Assembly: GCF_017313105.1 (NCBI RefSeq) | Contig: NZ_JAFLND010000003.1 | Location: 498,879 to 562,878, forward strand | Direction: 5' to 3' | From: [Muricauda] lutisoli (nom. illeg.) | GTDB taxonomy: Bacteria > Bacteroidota > Bacteroidia > Flavobacteriales > Flavobacteriaceae | Length of the DNA: 64,000 nucleotides | Shown: in pieces, positions 11,867 through 41,442 of the stretch | How the letters are laid out: each line of letters begins with the position of its first letter | Numbering within the stretch: the first letter of the stretch is position 1 | Made by a program: the position numbers and the translations under genes | The notes under the pieces: generated by a model | Told to the model about the DNA's origin: nothing | The model's input: only the letters and a program-made list of their open reading frames with translations | Databases searched by the model: none

Positions 11867-11876
11867 CGCTTCAAAA

Positions 11877-11943
11877 CGAGGAAAGATTTGACTGATTGCA
11901 ACCTCGGTTACCTTAAAAAGGTATACGAAAAATGCTAAAGCAG
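11877..11943 (+). ncRNA. SAM-II riboswitch upstream of metK
   Basis: P1 is CGAGG (11877-11881) with CCTCG (11902-11906). The loop between them contains GATTTGACTGATTGCAA, the SAM-II core that forms the pseudoknot with the 3' strand AAATGCTAAAGCAG (11930-11943). I compared it with the known SAM-II text GAUUUAACCGUAUUGCAAGC followed by AAAUGUAGCUAAAAAG. An extra hairpin GTTACCTT / AAGGTATAC (11907-11926) is inserted between P1 and the 3' strand. The 3' strand GCTAA can alternatively pair with TTAGC at 11992-11996, which could be the expression platform. No T-run follows, so control is probably translational. Confidence 0.8.
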
Positions 11944-12029
11944 TTCTTGTCAGCTACCGCCGGCATCTCTTCACCAAGGGTTTGGAACTTCTTAGCGCAT
12001 TTGTCAAATCTTCATTTTAAAAAAGAGAA

Positions 12030-15405: not shown

Positions 15406-15433
15406 TCCCACGAAGTTCAAAAATGTATTGTTA

Positions 15434-15569
15434 GTTATCAAGAAAGGTGGAGGGAATAGACCCGATGAAGCCTTAGCAACCCTTGGCGCTTGTCAAGAAG
15501 GTGCTACGTTCTATCCCATTGGGAATAGATAACATCTCAGGTAGTTTCTGCCCTCTTCTTTCTTATAAC
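15434..15569 (+). ncRNA. SAM-I (S-box) riboswitch
   Basis: The S-box core is present: AAGAAAGGTGGAGGGA, then GATGAAGCCTTAGCAACC, then AAGAAGGTGCTACGTTC. P1 pairs GTTAT-AAGAAAG (from 15434) with CTTTCTT-ATAAC (ending 15569). A hairpin TTCTATCCC / GGGAATAGA forms the P4-like arm. The leader continues about 50 bases to the ATG and contains GACCC / GGGTC (15591-15605) near the start codon but no terminator, so regulation may act on translation. It controls the MetX-aspartokinase-homoserine dehydrogenase fusion and metZ. Confidence 0.93.
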
Positions 15570-26615: not shown

Positions 26616-26760
26616 AAAACATCACATGATCAAACTAAAAATTGACTGAGCGATCAATCCATTTTTTATTGTTGGATTTCTAAAAATTCAGGGGCTTTTT
26701 TTGCTTTTGACTAAGGAGTGCCGTTTCTTTGCAGTTCAGTTCATTTATAAATTGAAAGTG

Positions 26761-26933
26761 TTATCAAGAAAGGTGGAGGGATTGGACCCTGTGAAGCCTT
26801 AGCAACCCTCGACTTCGAGAAGGTGCTACATTCTACCCTTGTCTTGAATTTTTTCAAGACCTTTAGGAAGTTTAACCTGTAAGGGGAAGGATAACGAACG
26901 AATACAGTACCGTATCCACACACCTTTCTTGAT
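26761..26933 (+). ncRNA. SAM-I (S-box) riboswitch upstream of metH
   Basis: The S-box core is clear: AAGAAAGGTGGAGGGATTGG, GTGAAGCCTTAGCAACCC, and GAGAAGGTGCTACATTC. P1 is a perfect 13-bp stem ATCAAGAAAGGTG (26763-26775) with CACCTTTCTTGAT (26921-26933). The P4 arm is long, with GTCTTGAA / TTCAAGAC. A possible promoter, TTTG with TAAATTGA 17 bases later (26748-26755), precedes it. No terminator separates it from the metH start 34 bases downstream, so translational control is likely. Confidence 0.95.
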
Positions 26934-37360: not shown

Positions 37361-37368
37361 TAAATTAG
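37361..37368 (+). promoter_or_regulatory. possible -7 element of the aromatic operon
   Basis: TAAATTAG is one mismatch from TAnnTTTG and lies 26 bases before the leader-peptide ATG. No clear -33 element was seen. Apart from this, the leader peptide and the terminator, I see nothing else in the 376 bases between gldA and pheA. Confidence 0.3.
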
Positions 37369-37386
37369 CCGACAATTAACAACGAG

Positions 37387-37458
37387 ATGACAAACACGTA
37401 TTTCTGGAACCGTTTTTATTTTTACTTCTTTTTTGAGAGAGGAGCGGGACTATTATAG
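37387..37458 (+). CDS. pheL: Phe/Tyr-rich leader peptide of the pheA operon
   Basis: A 23-codon ORF (ATG 37387, TAG 37456) 59 bases before pheA. Residues 9-16 are RFYFYFFF. In total there are six Phe, three Tyr and one Trp among 23 residues. It ends just before a terminator, and its own 3' end carries CGGGACT (37445-37451), which can pair with the terminator's 5' arm. Charged tRNA-Phe/Tyr would let the ribosome reach the stop codon and mask this segment, so the terminator forms. Stalling at the Phe codons would free it and prevent termination. This is the standard attenuation layout; the symbol is by analogy. Confidence 0.88.
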   Translation: MTNTYFWNRFYFYFFFERGAGLL

Positions 37459-37485
37459 ATACGTTTTAAGTATAACCAATTTATA

Positions 37486-37514
37486 AAGTCCCGATACATC
37501 GGGACTTTTTTTTT
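37486..37514 (+). terminator. attenuator terminator upstream of pheA
   Basis: Perfect 10-bp stem AAGTCCCGAT / ATCGGGACTT with a two-base loop, ending in a nine-T run, only three bases before the pheA ATG. AGTCCCG in the 5' arm is complementary to CGGGACT inside the leader ORF (37445-37451), giving a mutually exclusive antiterminator. Confidence 0.93.
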
Positions 37515-37517
37515 GCA

Positions 37518-38345
37518 ATGGAATTAAAAGTTGCCATACAAGGAATAAAGGGTTCCAACCACCATCAGGTGGCCGCCGATTTTTTTGGAGATAACATTGA
37601 GTTGATCGAGTGTAGCTCTTTTGATGCCGTTATCGATAGCTTATTGATGGGTGAAGCCGACAAGGGCATTATGGCCATCGAGAACTCCATTGCAGGGTCT
37701 ATTATTCCCAATTACAACCTGGTGTACCATAATAATATCCATGTTATCGGGGAGCACTACTTGAACATCCACCATAACCTTATGGTTATGAAGGGTAAAA
37801 CTTTTGATGATATCCAAGAGGTACATTCACACCCAATGGCATTGCTACAGTGCAAGGAGTTTTTCAAAACGCACCCACAGATCAAATTGGTGGAGAGTGT
37901 GGATACGGCCGAGACAGCAAAAAGAATCAAGGAGGAAGGACTTGGGCATATAGCTGCGATTGCTCCTAAAAAGGCAGCCGAATTGTACGATCTCGAAATT
38001 ATAGCGGATAACATCCAGACCATTGTTAATAATTCAACCAGGTTCATTGTTCTTAAAAAACAGAACAAGGTGCTGCCAGAGGAAGAGATCAACAAGGCCT
38101 CTTTACGATTTATAACCGATCACAAAAGAGGAAGTTTGGCAACGGTATTGAATGTGATGAGCGACTGCAATATGAATATGACCAAGATTCAGTCCCTACC
38201 TGTGATAGAGACCCCGTGGAAGTATGCCTTTTTTGTGGATGTAACCTTTGATAAATACGAGCACTTTGCCAAAACCAAATCGTTGATGCAGATCATGGCC
38301 GAGGATTTCAAGGTGTTGGGTGAATATAAAAATGCATTGTTGTAA
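37518..38345 (+). CDS. pheA: prephenate dehydratase
   Basis: This enzyme converts prephenate to phenylpyruvate for phenylalanine synthesis. The 275-residue protein has the dehydratase domain (MAIENSIAGSIIPNY, then NNSTRFIVLKK with the catalytic Thr of the TRF motif) and a C-terminal ACT domain (KRGSLATVLNVMSDCNMNMTKIQS) for Phe feedback. The usual ESRP of the ACT site reads QSLP here. It lacks the N-terminal chorismate mutase of enterobacterial PheA; that activity is on the DAHP synthase gene at the operon's end. It overlaps the next gene by one base (TAATG). Confidence 0.95.
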   Translation: MELKVAIQGIKGSNHHQVAADFFGDNIELIECSSFDAVIDSLLMGEADKGIMAIENSIAGSIIPNYNLVYHNNIHVIGEHYLNIHHNLMVMKGKTFDDIQEVHSHPMALLQCKEFFKTHPQIKLVESVDTAETAKRIKEEGLGHIAAIAPKKAAELYDLEIIADNIQTIVNNSTRFIVLKKQNKVLPEEEINKASLRFITDHKRGSLATVLNVMSDCNMNMTKIQSLPVIETPWKYAFFVDVTFDKYEHFAKTKSLMQIMAEDFKVLGEYKNALL

Positions 38346-39487
38346 TGATAACGGCAGATAGGTTAAATAGTATACAGGAATATTACTTCTCTAAAAAATT
38401 GAGAGAGGTCAGGGGATTAATGGCCGATGGCAAGCCCATTATCAACATGGGAATTGGCAGCCCGGATTTGGCACCATCACCGCAGGTACTGGAAACCCTT
38501 CGGGACTCCATTATCGAAGCGGGGGCACATCAATACCAAAGCTATCAAGGATTGCCACAACTTCGGGAGGCCATTGCGCATTTCTATCAGCAAAAATTTG
38601 AGGTGACCGTAGACCCATCTTCCGAAGTTTTGCCCTTAATGGGTTCCAAGGAAGGCATTATGCACATTAGTATGGCCTTTTTAAATGAAGGTGATGAGGT
38701 GTTGTTGCCAAATCCTGGGTATCCTACCTATACCTCGGTTACCAATTTGGTAGGTGGAGCACCGGTTAGTTATGACTTGAAAGCTGAAAATGGGTGGTTC
38801 CCCGATTTGGAGGAACTGTCCAAAAAAGATTTGTCCAAAGTAAAGGTAATGTGGATCAGCTATCCGCATATGCCGACAGGTGCTACGGCGACCAAGGAAC
38901 AACTGGAGTCTTTGGTGGAATTTGCCAAGGAAAACGAAATCCTTTTGGTGAACGATAACCCTTATAGTTTTGTCCTCTCCAGCAATCCCACCAGTATTTT
39001 GTCCATCGACGGGGCTAAAGATTGCACTCTGGAACTGAATAGTTTAAGCAAGACCTTCAACATGGCAGGCTGGCGAGTTGGAATGGTACTGGGTAGTGCA
39101 GAACATATCACCGCAGTGCTGAAAGTGAAGAGCAATATGGACTCAGGAATGTTCTATGGCATACAAAAAGGTGCGATCGCGGCCTTGCAAAGCGGGCCTG
39201 AGTGGTTCGAAGCATTGGACAAGGTGTATACCAAACGGCGAGAGTTGATGTTTCAATTGGCGGATAAATTGGGATGCACCTACGATAAAAATGCGGTGGG
39301 AATGTTTGTTTGGTGCAAGCTGCCCAAAGGTGCCGAACCCTCAGAGGACTTTATAGATAAGGTATTGCACGACAAAGACATTTTCATTGCGCCAGGAACC
39401 ATATTCGGGAGCAATGGAGAAGGCTACATTCGTTTTTCCCTTTGTGTGAAAGAAGAAAAGATTGAAGAAGCCATTGAAAGATTTTAG
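38345..39487 (+). CDS. class I aminotransferase, aromatic pathway
   Basis: A 380-residue PLP aminotransferase with the Schiff-base lysine in NSLSKTFNMAGWRVG (about residue 237), GIGSPDLAPSP near the N-terminus, and a NPGYPTY loop. Its place between pheA and tyrA, with a one-base overlap with pheA, indicates it transaminates phenylpyruvate and hydroxyphenylpyruvate. Aspartate or methionine use cannot be excluded. Text matches LL-DAP/aspartate-type class I enzymes. Confidence 0.88.
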   Translation: MITADRLNSIQEYYFSKKLREVRGLMADGKPIINMGIGSPDLAPSPQVLETLRDSIIEAGAHQYQSYQGLPQLREAIAHFYQQKFEVTVDPSSEVLPLMGSKEGIMHISMAFLNEGDEVLLPNPGYPTYTSVTNLVGGAPVSYDLKAENGWFPDLEELSKKDLSKVKVMWISYPHMPTGATATKEQLESLVEFAKENEILLVNDNPYSFVLSSNPTSILSIDGAKDCTLELNSLSKTFNMAGWRVGMVLGSAEHITAVLKVKSNMDSGMFYGIQKGAIAALQSGPEWFEALDKVYTKRRELMFQLADKLGCTYDKNAVGMFVWCKLPKGAEPSEDFIDKVLHDKDIFIAPGTIFGSNGEGYIRFSLCVKEEKIEEAIERF

Positions 39488-39490
39488 ATT

Positions 39491-40351
39491 ATGAAAGTAG
39501 TCATTATAGGAGTTGGATTGATAGGCGGTTCTTTTGCCAAGGATGTAAAAAAGCTACATCCCGAAGCGGAAATCGTTGGGGTGGACAAAAGTGATGCGCA
39601 TTTGGAGGAAGCGCTGCAACTTCAGATCATTGATAAAAAAGGAGACTACGGCGTTTTGGCAACCGCGGATATGGTTTATGTGGGAATCCCGGTAAATGTA
39701 CTGGTTACAGAATTGCCCACAATTTTGGATGCGGTTGGTGAGGAAACCGTGGTAATGGATGCCGGGTCCACCAAGCGATTGATTTGTGAGCAAGTTGCCG
39801 ACCATCCCAATCGAAGAAACTTCATGGCCTGCCACCCGATTGCTGGTACTGAGTTTTCAGGGCCAACGGCGGCTTTGGAAGGGTTGTATTCGGGTAAAAC
39901 CATGATCATCTGCGAAGTAGAGAAAACAGCCTTCAAGCTTCAGGAAAAAGCATTGGCCATTTTTCAGGATATCGGGATGCGAATCCGGTACATGAACCCC
40001 GAAGCGCACGACAAGCACATTGCCTACGTATCCCATTTATCACACATTAGCTCTTTTATGTTGGGAAAGACGGTTATTGAGAAAGAAAAAAATGAGCGTG
40101 ATATTTTTGACATGGCGGGAAGTGGTTTTGAGAGCACCGTTCGCTTGGCAAAAAGTTCCCCGGATATGTGGGCACCCATTTTTGAACAGAACAAGGACAA
40201 TGTTGTGGAAACGTTGGAAGAATACATACAGAACCTAACCACGTTCAAACAACTGATATTGGACAACGATTTCGAGAATGTCCACCAAGAAATGAGTAAT
40301 ACCAATAAAATAAAACAAATACTAAAAGGAATACCACTTACAAAAAAATAG
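39491..40351 (+). CDS. tyrA: prephenate dehydrogenase
   Basis: The enzyme oxidises prephenate to 4-hydroxyphenylpyruvate with NAD(P). The 286-residue protein begins with the Rossmann motif VIIGVGLIGGSFAKD. It has MACHPIAGTEFSGP (the substrate-binding HPxxG region) and AYVSHLSHISSF. There is no ACT or chorismate mutase domain. It lies three bases after the aminotransferase gene. Confidence 0.94.
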   Translation: MKVVIIGVGLIGGSFAKDVKKLHPEAEIVGVDKSDAHLEEALQLQIIDKKGDYGVLATADMVYVGIPVNVLVTELPTILDAVGEETVVMDAGSTKRLICEQVADHPNRRNFMACHPIAGTEFSGPTAALEGLYSGKTMIICEVEKTAFKLQEKALAIFQDIGMRIRYMNPEAHDKHIAYVSHLSHISSFMLGKTVIEKEKNERDIFDMAGSGFESTVRLAKSSPDMWAPIFEQNKDNVVETLEEYIQNLTTFKQLILDNDFENVHQEMSNTNKIKQILKGIPLTKK

Positions 40352-40359
40352 AGAGTATT

Positions 40360-41442
40360 ATGGAAAACAAAAAGGAAATGAGGAAATGGTTGGATGACAT
40401 GAATTTGGGTCATCCCTTGGTAGTAGCAGGTCCGTGCAGTGCGGAAACCGAAGACCAAGTGCTGAAAATAGCGCACGATCTTAAAGATACCGACGTGAGC
40501 TATTACCGTGCCGGAATCTGGAAACCAAGAACTCGTCCAGGGAACTTTGAAGGTGTAGGGGCCATTGGATTAAAGTGGTTGCAAAAGGTAAAAGAGGAGA
40601 CCGGGCTAAAAACCGCTACCGAAGTGGCCAACAGAACACACGTTGATTTAGCTTTGGAGCACGATGTGGATTTGTTGTGGATCGGAGCGCGTTCTACCGT
40701 AAGCCCATTTATCGTACAGGAAATTGCCGATGCTTTGGAAGGGACCGATAAGATCGTTTTGGTCAAGAACCCGGTAAACCCGGACTTATCGCTTTGGTTG
40801 GGAGCTGTGGAACGTTTGCACTCTGCCAATATCGAAAAGTTAGGAGTGATTCACAGAGGTTTCTCTACCTACGAAAAAACCAAATACCGTAATATTCCAG
40901 AATGGCAGTTGGCCATTGAGTTGCAAACCAAATTTCCTGATTTGCCCATCATCAATGACCCAAGCCACATTACCGGGAAGCGAGATATGATTTTTGATGT
41001 ATCGCAAACGGCTTTGGATTTGAACTTTGATGGTTTGATGATCGAAACGCATTACGATCCGGACAATGCATGGAGTGACGCCGCTCAGCAGGTAACCCCA
41101 AAAACATTGGTTCAGATTATGAAAGACCTACGCATTAGAAAAGAGACAGACGAGGAAGCCGAATACAAGAACAATTTGAGCAACCTAAGGGCTCAGATTG
41201 ATGTGTTGGACAACCAATTGATCGATCTTTTGGGAAAAAGAATGAAAGTTTCCGACGGAATAGGGGAGCTTAAAAAGCAAAAGAACGTTGCTGTGCTCCA
41301 GAGCAATCGTTGGAACGCCATATTGGGCAATATGATCTTGGAAGGTGAGCAAAGAGGATTGAGCGAGGAATTTGTTTTGAAAATGTTCAAGGCAATCCAC
41401 CAGGAGTCCATTAACCACCAAGAAAAAATCATCAACGCTTAG
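40360..41442 (+). CDS. bifunctional DAHP synthase / chorismate mutase
   Basis: The 360-residue fusion has an N-terminal DAHP synthase of the KDO8P-synthase-like type (VVAGPCSAETEDQVLK, then IGARSTVSPFIVQ and INDPSHITGKRD), which makes the first shikimate intermediate. Its C-terminal AroQ chorismate mutase spans about 270-360 (LRAQIDVLDNQLIDLLGKRM). The operon therefore encodes entry to the pathway, the branch-point mutase and both prephenate branches. A fused mutase commonly confers prephenate-sensitive feedback on the synthase. A terminator follows. Confidence 0.93.
   Translation: MENKKEMRKWLDDMNLGHPLVVAGPCSAETEDQVLKIAHDLKDTDVSYYRAGIWKPRTRPGNFEGVGAIGLKWLQKVKEETGLKTATEVANRTHVDLALEHDVDLLWIGARSTVSPFIVQEIADALEGTDKIVLVKNPVNPDLSLWLGAVERLHSANIEKLGVIHRGFSTYEKTKYRNIPEWQLAIELQTKFPDLPIINDPSHITGKRDMIFDVSQTALDLNFDGLMIETHYDPDNAWSDAAQQVTPKTLVQIMKDLRIRKETDEEAEYKNNLSNLRAQIDVLDNQLIDLLGKRMKVSDGIGELKKQKNVAVLQSNRWNAILGNMILEGEQRGLSEEFVLKMFKAIHQESINHQEKIINA

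Follow-up and report, generated by a model that had tools for sequence, protein, structure and literature searches.

A very probable leader-peptide attenuator before the pheA operon of Flavobacteriaceae, with Phe and Tyr codons and with similar leaders in other Bacteroidia

In E. coli, the leader pheL contains Phe codons and is not known to contain Tyr codons, and it precedes a single bifunctional gene, for chorismate mutase/prephenate dehydratase. Other leaders in E. coli combine codons for several products of the pathway that they control: thrL has Thr and Ile codons, and ilvL is another example. Work by Vitreschak in 2004 and by Lopatovskaya in 2010 reportedly describes attenuation in other phyla.

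Among the Bacteroidota, a related element has been described from Flavobacterium psychrophilum. According to the main text of a 2021 study, this bacterium has a transcribed and structured 5' element before pheA, which also occurs in other genera of Flavobacteriaceae and which has no hits in Rfam (PMC9723704). The same text speaks of strong indications that amino-acid operons of F. psychrophilum are controlled by leader-peptide attenuation. In Bacteroides thetaiotaomicron, long 5' UTRs with short ORFs are mentioned as "reminiscent of leader peptides" (PMC7366714).

We analyzed a stretch of 64,000 nucleotides from [Muricauda] lutisoli (the window). We are highly confident that its pheA operon is preceded by a classical ribosome-mediated transcription attenuator (Table 1). 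A first-pass annotation, made from the sequence alone, had proposed a leader ORF of 23 codons with 6 Phe, 3 Tyr, and 1 Trp, and both its coordinates and its translation (MTNTYFWNRFYFYFFFERGAGLL) agree with ours. This ORF is below the length of a 60-aa ORF list. The complementary segments that were proposed, CGGGACT near the end of the leader and AGTCCCG in the 5' arm of the terminator, are also where they were said to be. A 10-bp terminator was said to end three bases before pheA, which is correct for the end of the U-tract (37514); the stem itself (37485-37508) ends nine bases before the ATG.

Table 1. Features of the pheA locus, in coordinates of the window.
Feature	Position	Strand	Details
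gldA	start 37141	-	TIGR03522; divergent from pheA
Promoter-like -7 box, putative	37361..37368	+	TAAATTAG; a variant form of TAnnTTTG, the box of Bacteroidota
Leader ORF	37387..37458	+	MTNTYFWNRFYFYFFFERGAGLL; 23 codons + TAG; ATG at 37387, TAG at 37456-37458
Segments 1+2, possible protector hairpin	37405..37452	+	37405-37424 pairs with 37434-37452 (the window's own fold)
Antiterminator 2:3	37445..37493	+	CGGGACT (37445-37451) pairs with AGTCCCG (37487-37493); the longer hairpin extends inward
Intrinsic terminator 3:4	37485..37514	+	10-bp stem AAAGTCCCGA/TCGGGACTTT, loop TACA, U-tract
pheA, prephenate dehydratase	37518..38345	+	NCBIfam NF008865, 198.8 bits; curated cut-off of 219 not reached
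PLP aminotransferase	38345..39487	+	Highest-scoring models: LL-diaminopimelate aminotransferase; cut-off not reached
tyrA, prephenate dehydrogenase	39491..40351	+	NF006307, 386.5 bits; cut-off of 295 exceeded
DAHP synthase/chorismate mutase fusion	40360..41442	+	NF009239, 187.3 bits; cut-off of 279 not reached

The leader, the antiterminator, and the terminator all lie in the gap between gldA and pheA. Because gldA is transcribed divergently, there is no gene upstream that the terminator could serve. Within the operon, pheA and the aminotransferase gene overlap by 1 nt, and the next two gaps, before tyrA and before the DAHP synthase gene, are 3 and 8 nt. Given its context, the aminotransferase is probably an aromatic aminotransferase. 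In the product of the last gene, chorismate mutase models cover the final ~90 residues. The PheA protein is identical in locus L002, from Allomuricauda profundi (current name Flagellimonas profundi). More broadly, an aminotransferase gene lies 3' of pheA in all 80 loci of Flavobacteriaceae from genome contigs, and the order aminotransferase-tyrA-DAHP synthase follows pheA in all 77 loci where 4 kb or more was available. The window also contains one SAM-II riboswitch (RF01726) and two SAM riboswitches (RF00162), all above the gathering score, at 11872-11948, 15432-15535, and 26758-26897, that is, within ~15 kb.

The predicted fold of the element (37387-37514) has an energy of -31.3 kcal/mol, versus a mean of -18.36 for its shuffles (z = -4.40; 0 of 200 shuffles equal it). 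For the individual hairpins, the predicted energies are -18.0 kcal/mol for 2:3 (37444-37494), -13.9 for 3:4, and -11.2 for the window's 1:2. The exact stem of the terminator has a single copy in the genome (counting the exact sequence and not its variants).

Transcription would start from a putative promoter with the -7 box TAAATTAG; TAnnTTTG is described as the -7 box of the flavobacterial sigma-A (PMC9723704). Of the 187 family regions with a leader (see below), 176 have TAnnTT[T/A]G within 60 nt 5' of its start, versus 9.9% of mononucleotide shuffles, and the median position of the box is -26 relative to the start. The strict TAnnTTTG box is present in only 10 of the 187 regions, and we identified no -33 element. 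As for the start of translation, a Shine-Dalgarno-like sequence precedes 2 of the 187 leaders, while 143 of the 187 have an A at -3.

To describe conservation within the Flavobacteriaceae, we used 189 regions upstream of pheA (the family set): L002-L081 (80 regions, from genome contigs), L083-L111 (29), and L112-L191 (80). The window's own copies, L001 and L082, are not part of this set. The last two groups are from 109 genomes (G handles), which are the better-matching part of the 226 genomes, the window's own included, with a match to pheA; the least similar matches, and 23 genomes without a match, lie outside the set. L112-L191 are the first 40 further matches that could be placed and a thinned sample of lower-ranked ones. 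Some species are probably counted twice across the two collections (for example, L059 and L113 share a leader, as do L061 and L109). For alignments, 186 of the 187 elements that were found passed a length filter, and 82 were left at under 83% identity. Alignment A1 contains 40 of these 82, and A2 contains 21. Pair counts are from A1, and A2 was folded only; a third alignment (A3, 45 mixed sequences) was left out of the counts.

In 187 of the 189 regions, an aromatic leader precedes a terminator; the exceptions are L169 and L189. By a simple criterion (6 or more aromatic codons in 8, in an ORF at most 350 nt from pheA), 183 of 189 regions have a leader, versus 1.4% of dinucleotide shuffles and 3 of 189 reverse complements. 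Every one of the 187 leaders contains at least one Tyr, and 184 contain at least two. In codons 5-16 of A1, the variability at codon positions 1, 2, and 3 is 0.046, 0.081, and 0.16. The highest variation is at the third position, which is the pattern expected of a translated frame.

A covariance model built from A1 has one match in this genome, directly before pheA. At E = 0.001 or better, the model matches 187 of 249 family genomes, and in 11 family genomes there is a second match. Among the best 60 matches in the family, 58 are in genomes with a listed place for pheA, and all 58 lie directly upstream of it on the same strand, at a distance of -2 to 331 nt (G031 and G242 are outside this comparison).

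Several loci have extra sequence between the terminator and pheA (L004, L006, L022, L028, L029, and L034), and several of these spacers contain an inverted repeat of the type CCCGAA...TTCGGG. In L119, 385 nt separate the end of the leader from pheA. As judged from these loci, the putative attenuator is tolerant of large shifts in its distance to pheA.

The two mutually exclusive helices, 2:3 and 3:4, show compensatory changes. On A1, 95.7% of the cells of 2:3 are paired, versus at most 59% if the helix is slid by 1-3 columns, and 5 of its 7 pairs have double changes. For 3:4, 99.2% of cells are paired and 5 of 9 pairs have double changes. For both helices, 0 of 500 shuffles match the number of double-changed pairs or cells (shuffling leaves the sequences as related as they were). 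In 2:3 on A1, further pair types are no more numerous than in the shuffles, 143 of 500 of which have as many.

We also counted changes in 2:3 along a tree whose 106 tips are full PheA proteins (109 minus L031, L087, and L111). Across the five central pairs of the seven, which were the ones scored, there were 5 double changes and 14 one-sided changes that kept the pair, and 1 break. The central triplets are GGG/CCC in 112 of 185 sequences and GAG/CTC in 45 of 185, which is a clade-wide swap. On average, a sequence's own segments form 5.54 Watson-Crick pairs of 6, versus 4.81 if the alleles are crossed. Considered one at a time, 148 of 187 sequences have a better 2:3 match than their shuffled leader tails (at most 5 of 100 reach it), while in 39 of 187 the match is ordinary by this comparison. 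Thus, alignment of relatives, which the first-pass annotation had put forward as one way to check its proposal, turned out in its favor: the leader ORF and the pairing segments are conserved, and both the terminator and the antiterminator show compensatory changes.

The remaining hairpin, 1:2, might be a protector. RNAalifold, if given A1, picks the 1:2 hairpin and the terminator unprompted. Its 1:2 helix has 18 pairs, and 94.2% of the cells are paired, versus 49-62% if it is slid. This helix has 12 double-changed cells and 0 of 500 shuffles have as many, but sliding the helix by -3 gives 14. Nor is the number of pairs with a double change unusual: 84 of 500 shuffles have as many, and the slide of -3 has more (5 pairs). 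A narrower 1:2 helix, with 9 pairs, shows no covariation above shuffles on A1. Because of these results with shuffles and with the slide of -3, the support for 1:2 is clearly weaker than for 2:3. In columns 51 and 102 of A1, which are predicted to pair in 1:2, codon 7 (TGG or else TTT/TAT) covaries with the last codon of the leader (TTC or else TTG/TTA); there are 9 double-changed cells, and 10 of the 40 sequences are unpaired.

We then asked what a ribosome at each codon would do to these structures. We computed the probability of the antiterminator, P(2:3), for RNA that is transcribed through segment 3 and with the footprint of the ribosome masked, which is a statement about geometry only. 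For the window's leader (computed for L002, which is identical there), P(2:3) is 1.00 with the A site at any of codons 2-17 and is at most 0.01 from codon 18 to the stop. The first-pass annotation had claimed that stalling would free the antiterminator, which agrees with the model, but the codons it gave (10-14) were too narrow a range. It was right that a ribosome at the stop would cover segment 2 (P of 0.01 or less) and, overall, the classical geometry that it proposed fits the model.

The model gives the same geometry across the family. In 185 of 186 sequences, P(2:3) is above 0.5 at some Phe or Tyr codon and is below 0.1 at the stop. The median across the 186 sequences is 0.92, if averaged over the Phe and Tyr codons, and 0.00 at the stop. 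We checked every fourth sequence (47 in all) for where the aromatic run ends: in 98% of them, the last Phe or Tyr codon of the core precedes the codon at which the structure switches. The median lead is 2, 2, or 1 codons for footprints of +12, +13, or +15 from the P site. In the model, the aromatic codons thus stop just at a point where stalling would still work.

If no ribosome is present, P(2:3) is 1.00 for the window and averages 0.66 across the 186 sequences. P(2:3) for the stalled ribosome is above that of both other states in only 140 of the 186. In the window, 1:2 does not out-compete 2:3 at equilibrium. Since P(2:3) is 1.00 there without a ribosome, basal termination by means of 1:2, as in the trp paradigm, is not obvious.

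We propose the following mechanism. RNA polymerase would start just 5' of the leader, and translation of the leader would begin independently of a Shine-Dalgarno sequence. With an ample supply of charged Phe-tRNA and Tyr-tRNA, the ribosome would reach the stop codon and mask segment 2 (CGGGACT), so that 3:4 forms and RNA polymerase terminates in the U-tract, ahead of pheA. If charged Phe-tRNA (and presumably Tyr-tRNA) runs short, the ribosome would wait within the YF...FYFYFFF run, which would leave segment 2 free to form the 2:3 antiterminator, and the operon from pheA through the aminotransferase gene, tyrA, and the DAHP synthase gene would be transcribed. The sensing of Tyr beside Phe is suggested by the codon content of the leader and by the conservation of that content.

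We also searched for such leaders in other families. This set has 73 regions: 49 of the 50 matches from a search of the class and 24 of the 52 further matches from a search of the order. We found pheA in 57 of 197 genomes in the class search and in 74 of 148 genomes in the order search; because of this low recovery, the set is short of divergent pheA genes. In 39 of the 73 regions, from 17 of 28 family codes, pheA is preceded by an ORF in which 6 or more of 8 codons are aromatic, versus 0.8% of shuffles. All 39 leaders contain at least two Tyr, and 29 of the 39 passed a scripted test for a terminator and for 2:3 pairing. In L212, L216, L224, L228, L232, and L233, which are not counted among the 29, the script found no terminator, and by eye there are mismatched hairpins and then T-runs. 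The pairing sequences vary by family, as in L268 (GAGCGGTC/GACCGCTC) or L217 (AAGCGGGA/TCCCGCTT).

In the other 34 of the 73 regions, there was no leader by the 6-of-8 criterion. These include all 8 regions from family f2, whose pheA is divergent, all 7 regions from f13, and all 4 regions from the 0.6-Mb genomes of f78 (L264-L267), which do contain pheA. L265 has just an ORF that starts with TTG, with 5 of 8 codons aromatic and without a terminator. Attenuator control has apparently been lost in these reduced genomes. L197 and L200 seem to have no leader since pheA, as judged by eye, immediately follows another coding frame.

The strongest alternative, which we consider unlikely, is that the leader senses Phe only, and that the Tyr codons (TAT/TAC) are kept because they resemble Phe codons and keep segment 1 U-rich. 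A shortage of Tyr would then have little effect. Indeed, Phe outnumbers Tyr in the core windows (851 vs. 385). Also, of 33 loci outside the family, as viewed across ~1.5 kb, 5 have only DAHP synthase behind pheA and 3 have the aminotransferase and DAHP synthase without tyrA. The leaders at loci without a visible tyrA still have Tyr, so the Tyr codons are not strictly tied to tyrA. On the other hand, tyrA belongs to the operon here, and Tyr is present in every leader, both in the family (at least one) and outside it (at least two). Furthermore, other U/A-rich codons are nearly absent from the core windows (2 Leu, 4 Ile, and 4 Val); the most common non-aromatic residues are Gly (84), Asn (62), Arg (31), and Ser (20).

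Control might instead be mainly translational, if the hairpin hides the initiation region of pheA in the read-through RNA. The position of the hairpin, 9 nt before the start of pheA, is suggestive, and the stem ends 8-10 nt before the ATG in the window and the sampled close relatives (L002 to L044). In the other sampled rows, this spacing ranges from 6 to 93 nt (excluding one stray hairpin, in L068), and L004, L006, L022, and L119 have extra sequence between the stem and pheA, which makes this explanation highly improbable. It is also highly improbable that the leader is an arrest peptide, whose nascent chain, rather than the charging of tRNA, would stall the ribosome, perhaps in response to free Phe or Tyr. 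The peptide is unusually conserved among close relatives (YFWNGFYFYFFFKRGTGLL-like), but helices 1:2 and 2:3 can account for the conservation of the flanking codons, and in other clades the peptide has been rebuilt (NWFYFFFSKRNETLYV; YYFGYFYYFSKSRG) with its aromatic richness kept. Finally, it is barely credible that the divergent genes are separated just by a common terminator or a small RNA, and that the aromatic ORF arose by chance from a high T content: T-rich DNA does yield Phe codons easily (at least 5 of 8 codons are aromatic in 9.7% of shuffles), but no co-directional gene lies directly upstream, the exact stem is found once in the genome (variants uncounted), and the 6-of-8 enrichment (183/189 vs. 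1.4%), the third-position variation, and the covariation of 2:3 all argue against it.

A ribosome-mediated attenuator before pheA may not be alone in this genome. By eye, we chose leader-like ORFs for his, trp, thr, and ilv from among the genome's short ORFs. Upstream of hisG (L284), the ORF MRNKNTHHHFYTCPQAR leads into the hairpin AACCCGTTTGAGAAATCAAACGGGTT, whose tail is T-rich; together, these are probably a His attenuator, and Rfam gives no match to this leader at E = 0.1. The leader upstream of trpE (L285), MNNRTANNWWWINLRQTS, matches RF01692 with 60.6 bits (the gathering score is 49). A Thr-rich leader-like ORF, MNPFSSTFTITTTTPLG, lies upstream of an aspartokinase gene (an open frame of 816 aa; L290). 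Upstream of the ilvD operon (L295), the ORF MKVNQQVIIEVTIIPKMG (Ile/Val/Thr) is followed by a terminator-like hairpin; this leader scores 47.1 bits against Thr_leader (RF00506), which does not reach the gathering score of 55. Of these four candidates, trp is the only one to pass Rfam's threshold.

We lean slightly towards a broader view, which is that in the Bacteroidia, a dual-sensing Phe and Tyr attenuator would be the old standard control of pheA. It would have persisted in 17 or more other families, although the sequences of the peptide and of the pairing segments were rebuilt several times. It would also belong to a set of controls over amino-acid synthesis (phe/tyr, his, trp, thr, and ilv), in a phylum where most translation begins without the help of Shine-Dalgarno sequences. 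If this is true, then a ribosome must follow RNA polymerase closely over the first ~100 nt of RNA. The pheA leader offers a test of transcription-translation coupling, and of initiation independent of Shine-Dalgarno sequences, in the Bacteroidota. Our alignments could seed a new Rfam family.

How does the pheA leader compare to known systems? By its description, the 5' element of pheA in F. psychrophilum is very probably the same element. The main text of that study (PMC9723704) presents it without the leader's sequence, its pairing, its codon content, or its distribution beyond the family. In the literature that we searched, which mostly does not cover subscription journals, we found no description of a Phe/Tyr leader or its pairing. 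The Bacteroid-trp RNA (RF01692), as outlined in PMC2864571, likewise heads an operon for an aromatic amino acid in this phylum; unlike the pheA leader of the window, it has Trp codons and precedes trpE, and it is absent from the 13 Rfam matches to our leader with E up to 10. The first-pass annotation had offered the element as a clear case in Bacteroidota. The case is well supported, but it is not the first hint, given RF01692 and the 2021 report of the pheA element.

The closest system in mechanism is the pheA attenuator of E. coli (pheL; RF01859), which also has a Phe-rich leader, mutually exclusive 2:3 and 3:4 hairpins, and a terminator before pheA. If the window is compared to the Phe_leader model (RF01859) with cmscan, the whole element is aligned, with the terminator in register, at 30.1 bits (E = 0.0052), which is below the gathering score of 55. 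Unlike in E. coli, the operon also includes tyrA and DAHP synthase. As in thrL and ilvL, one leader has codons for several products, but thrL and ilvL serve other amino acids and other operons. The mechanism of attenuation is itself textbook knowledge and was already known. What appears to be new, on the evidence of the sequences, is the resolved anatomy of the element, its dual content of Phe and Tyr codons, and its depth across the class. Attenuation of the textbook type is indicated to be conserved far from the Proteobacteria, and here it may read two amino acids at once.
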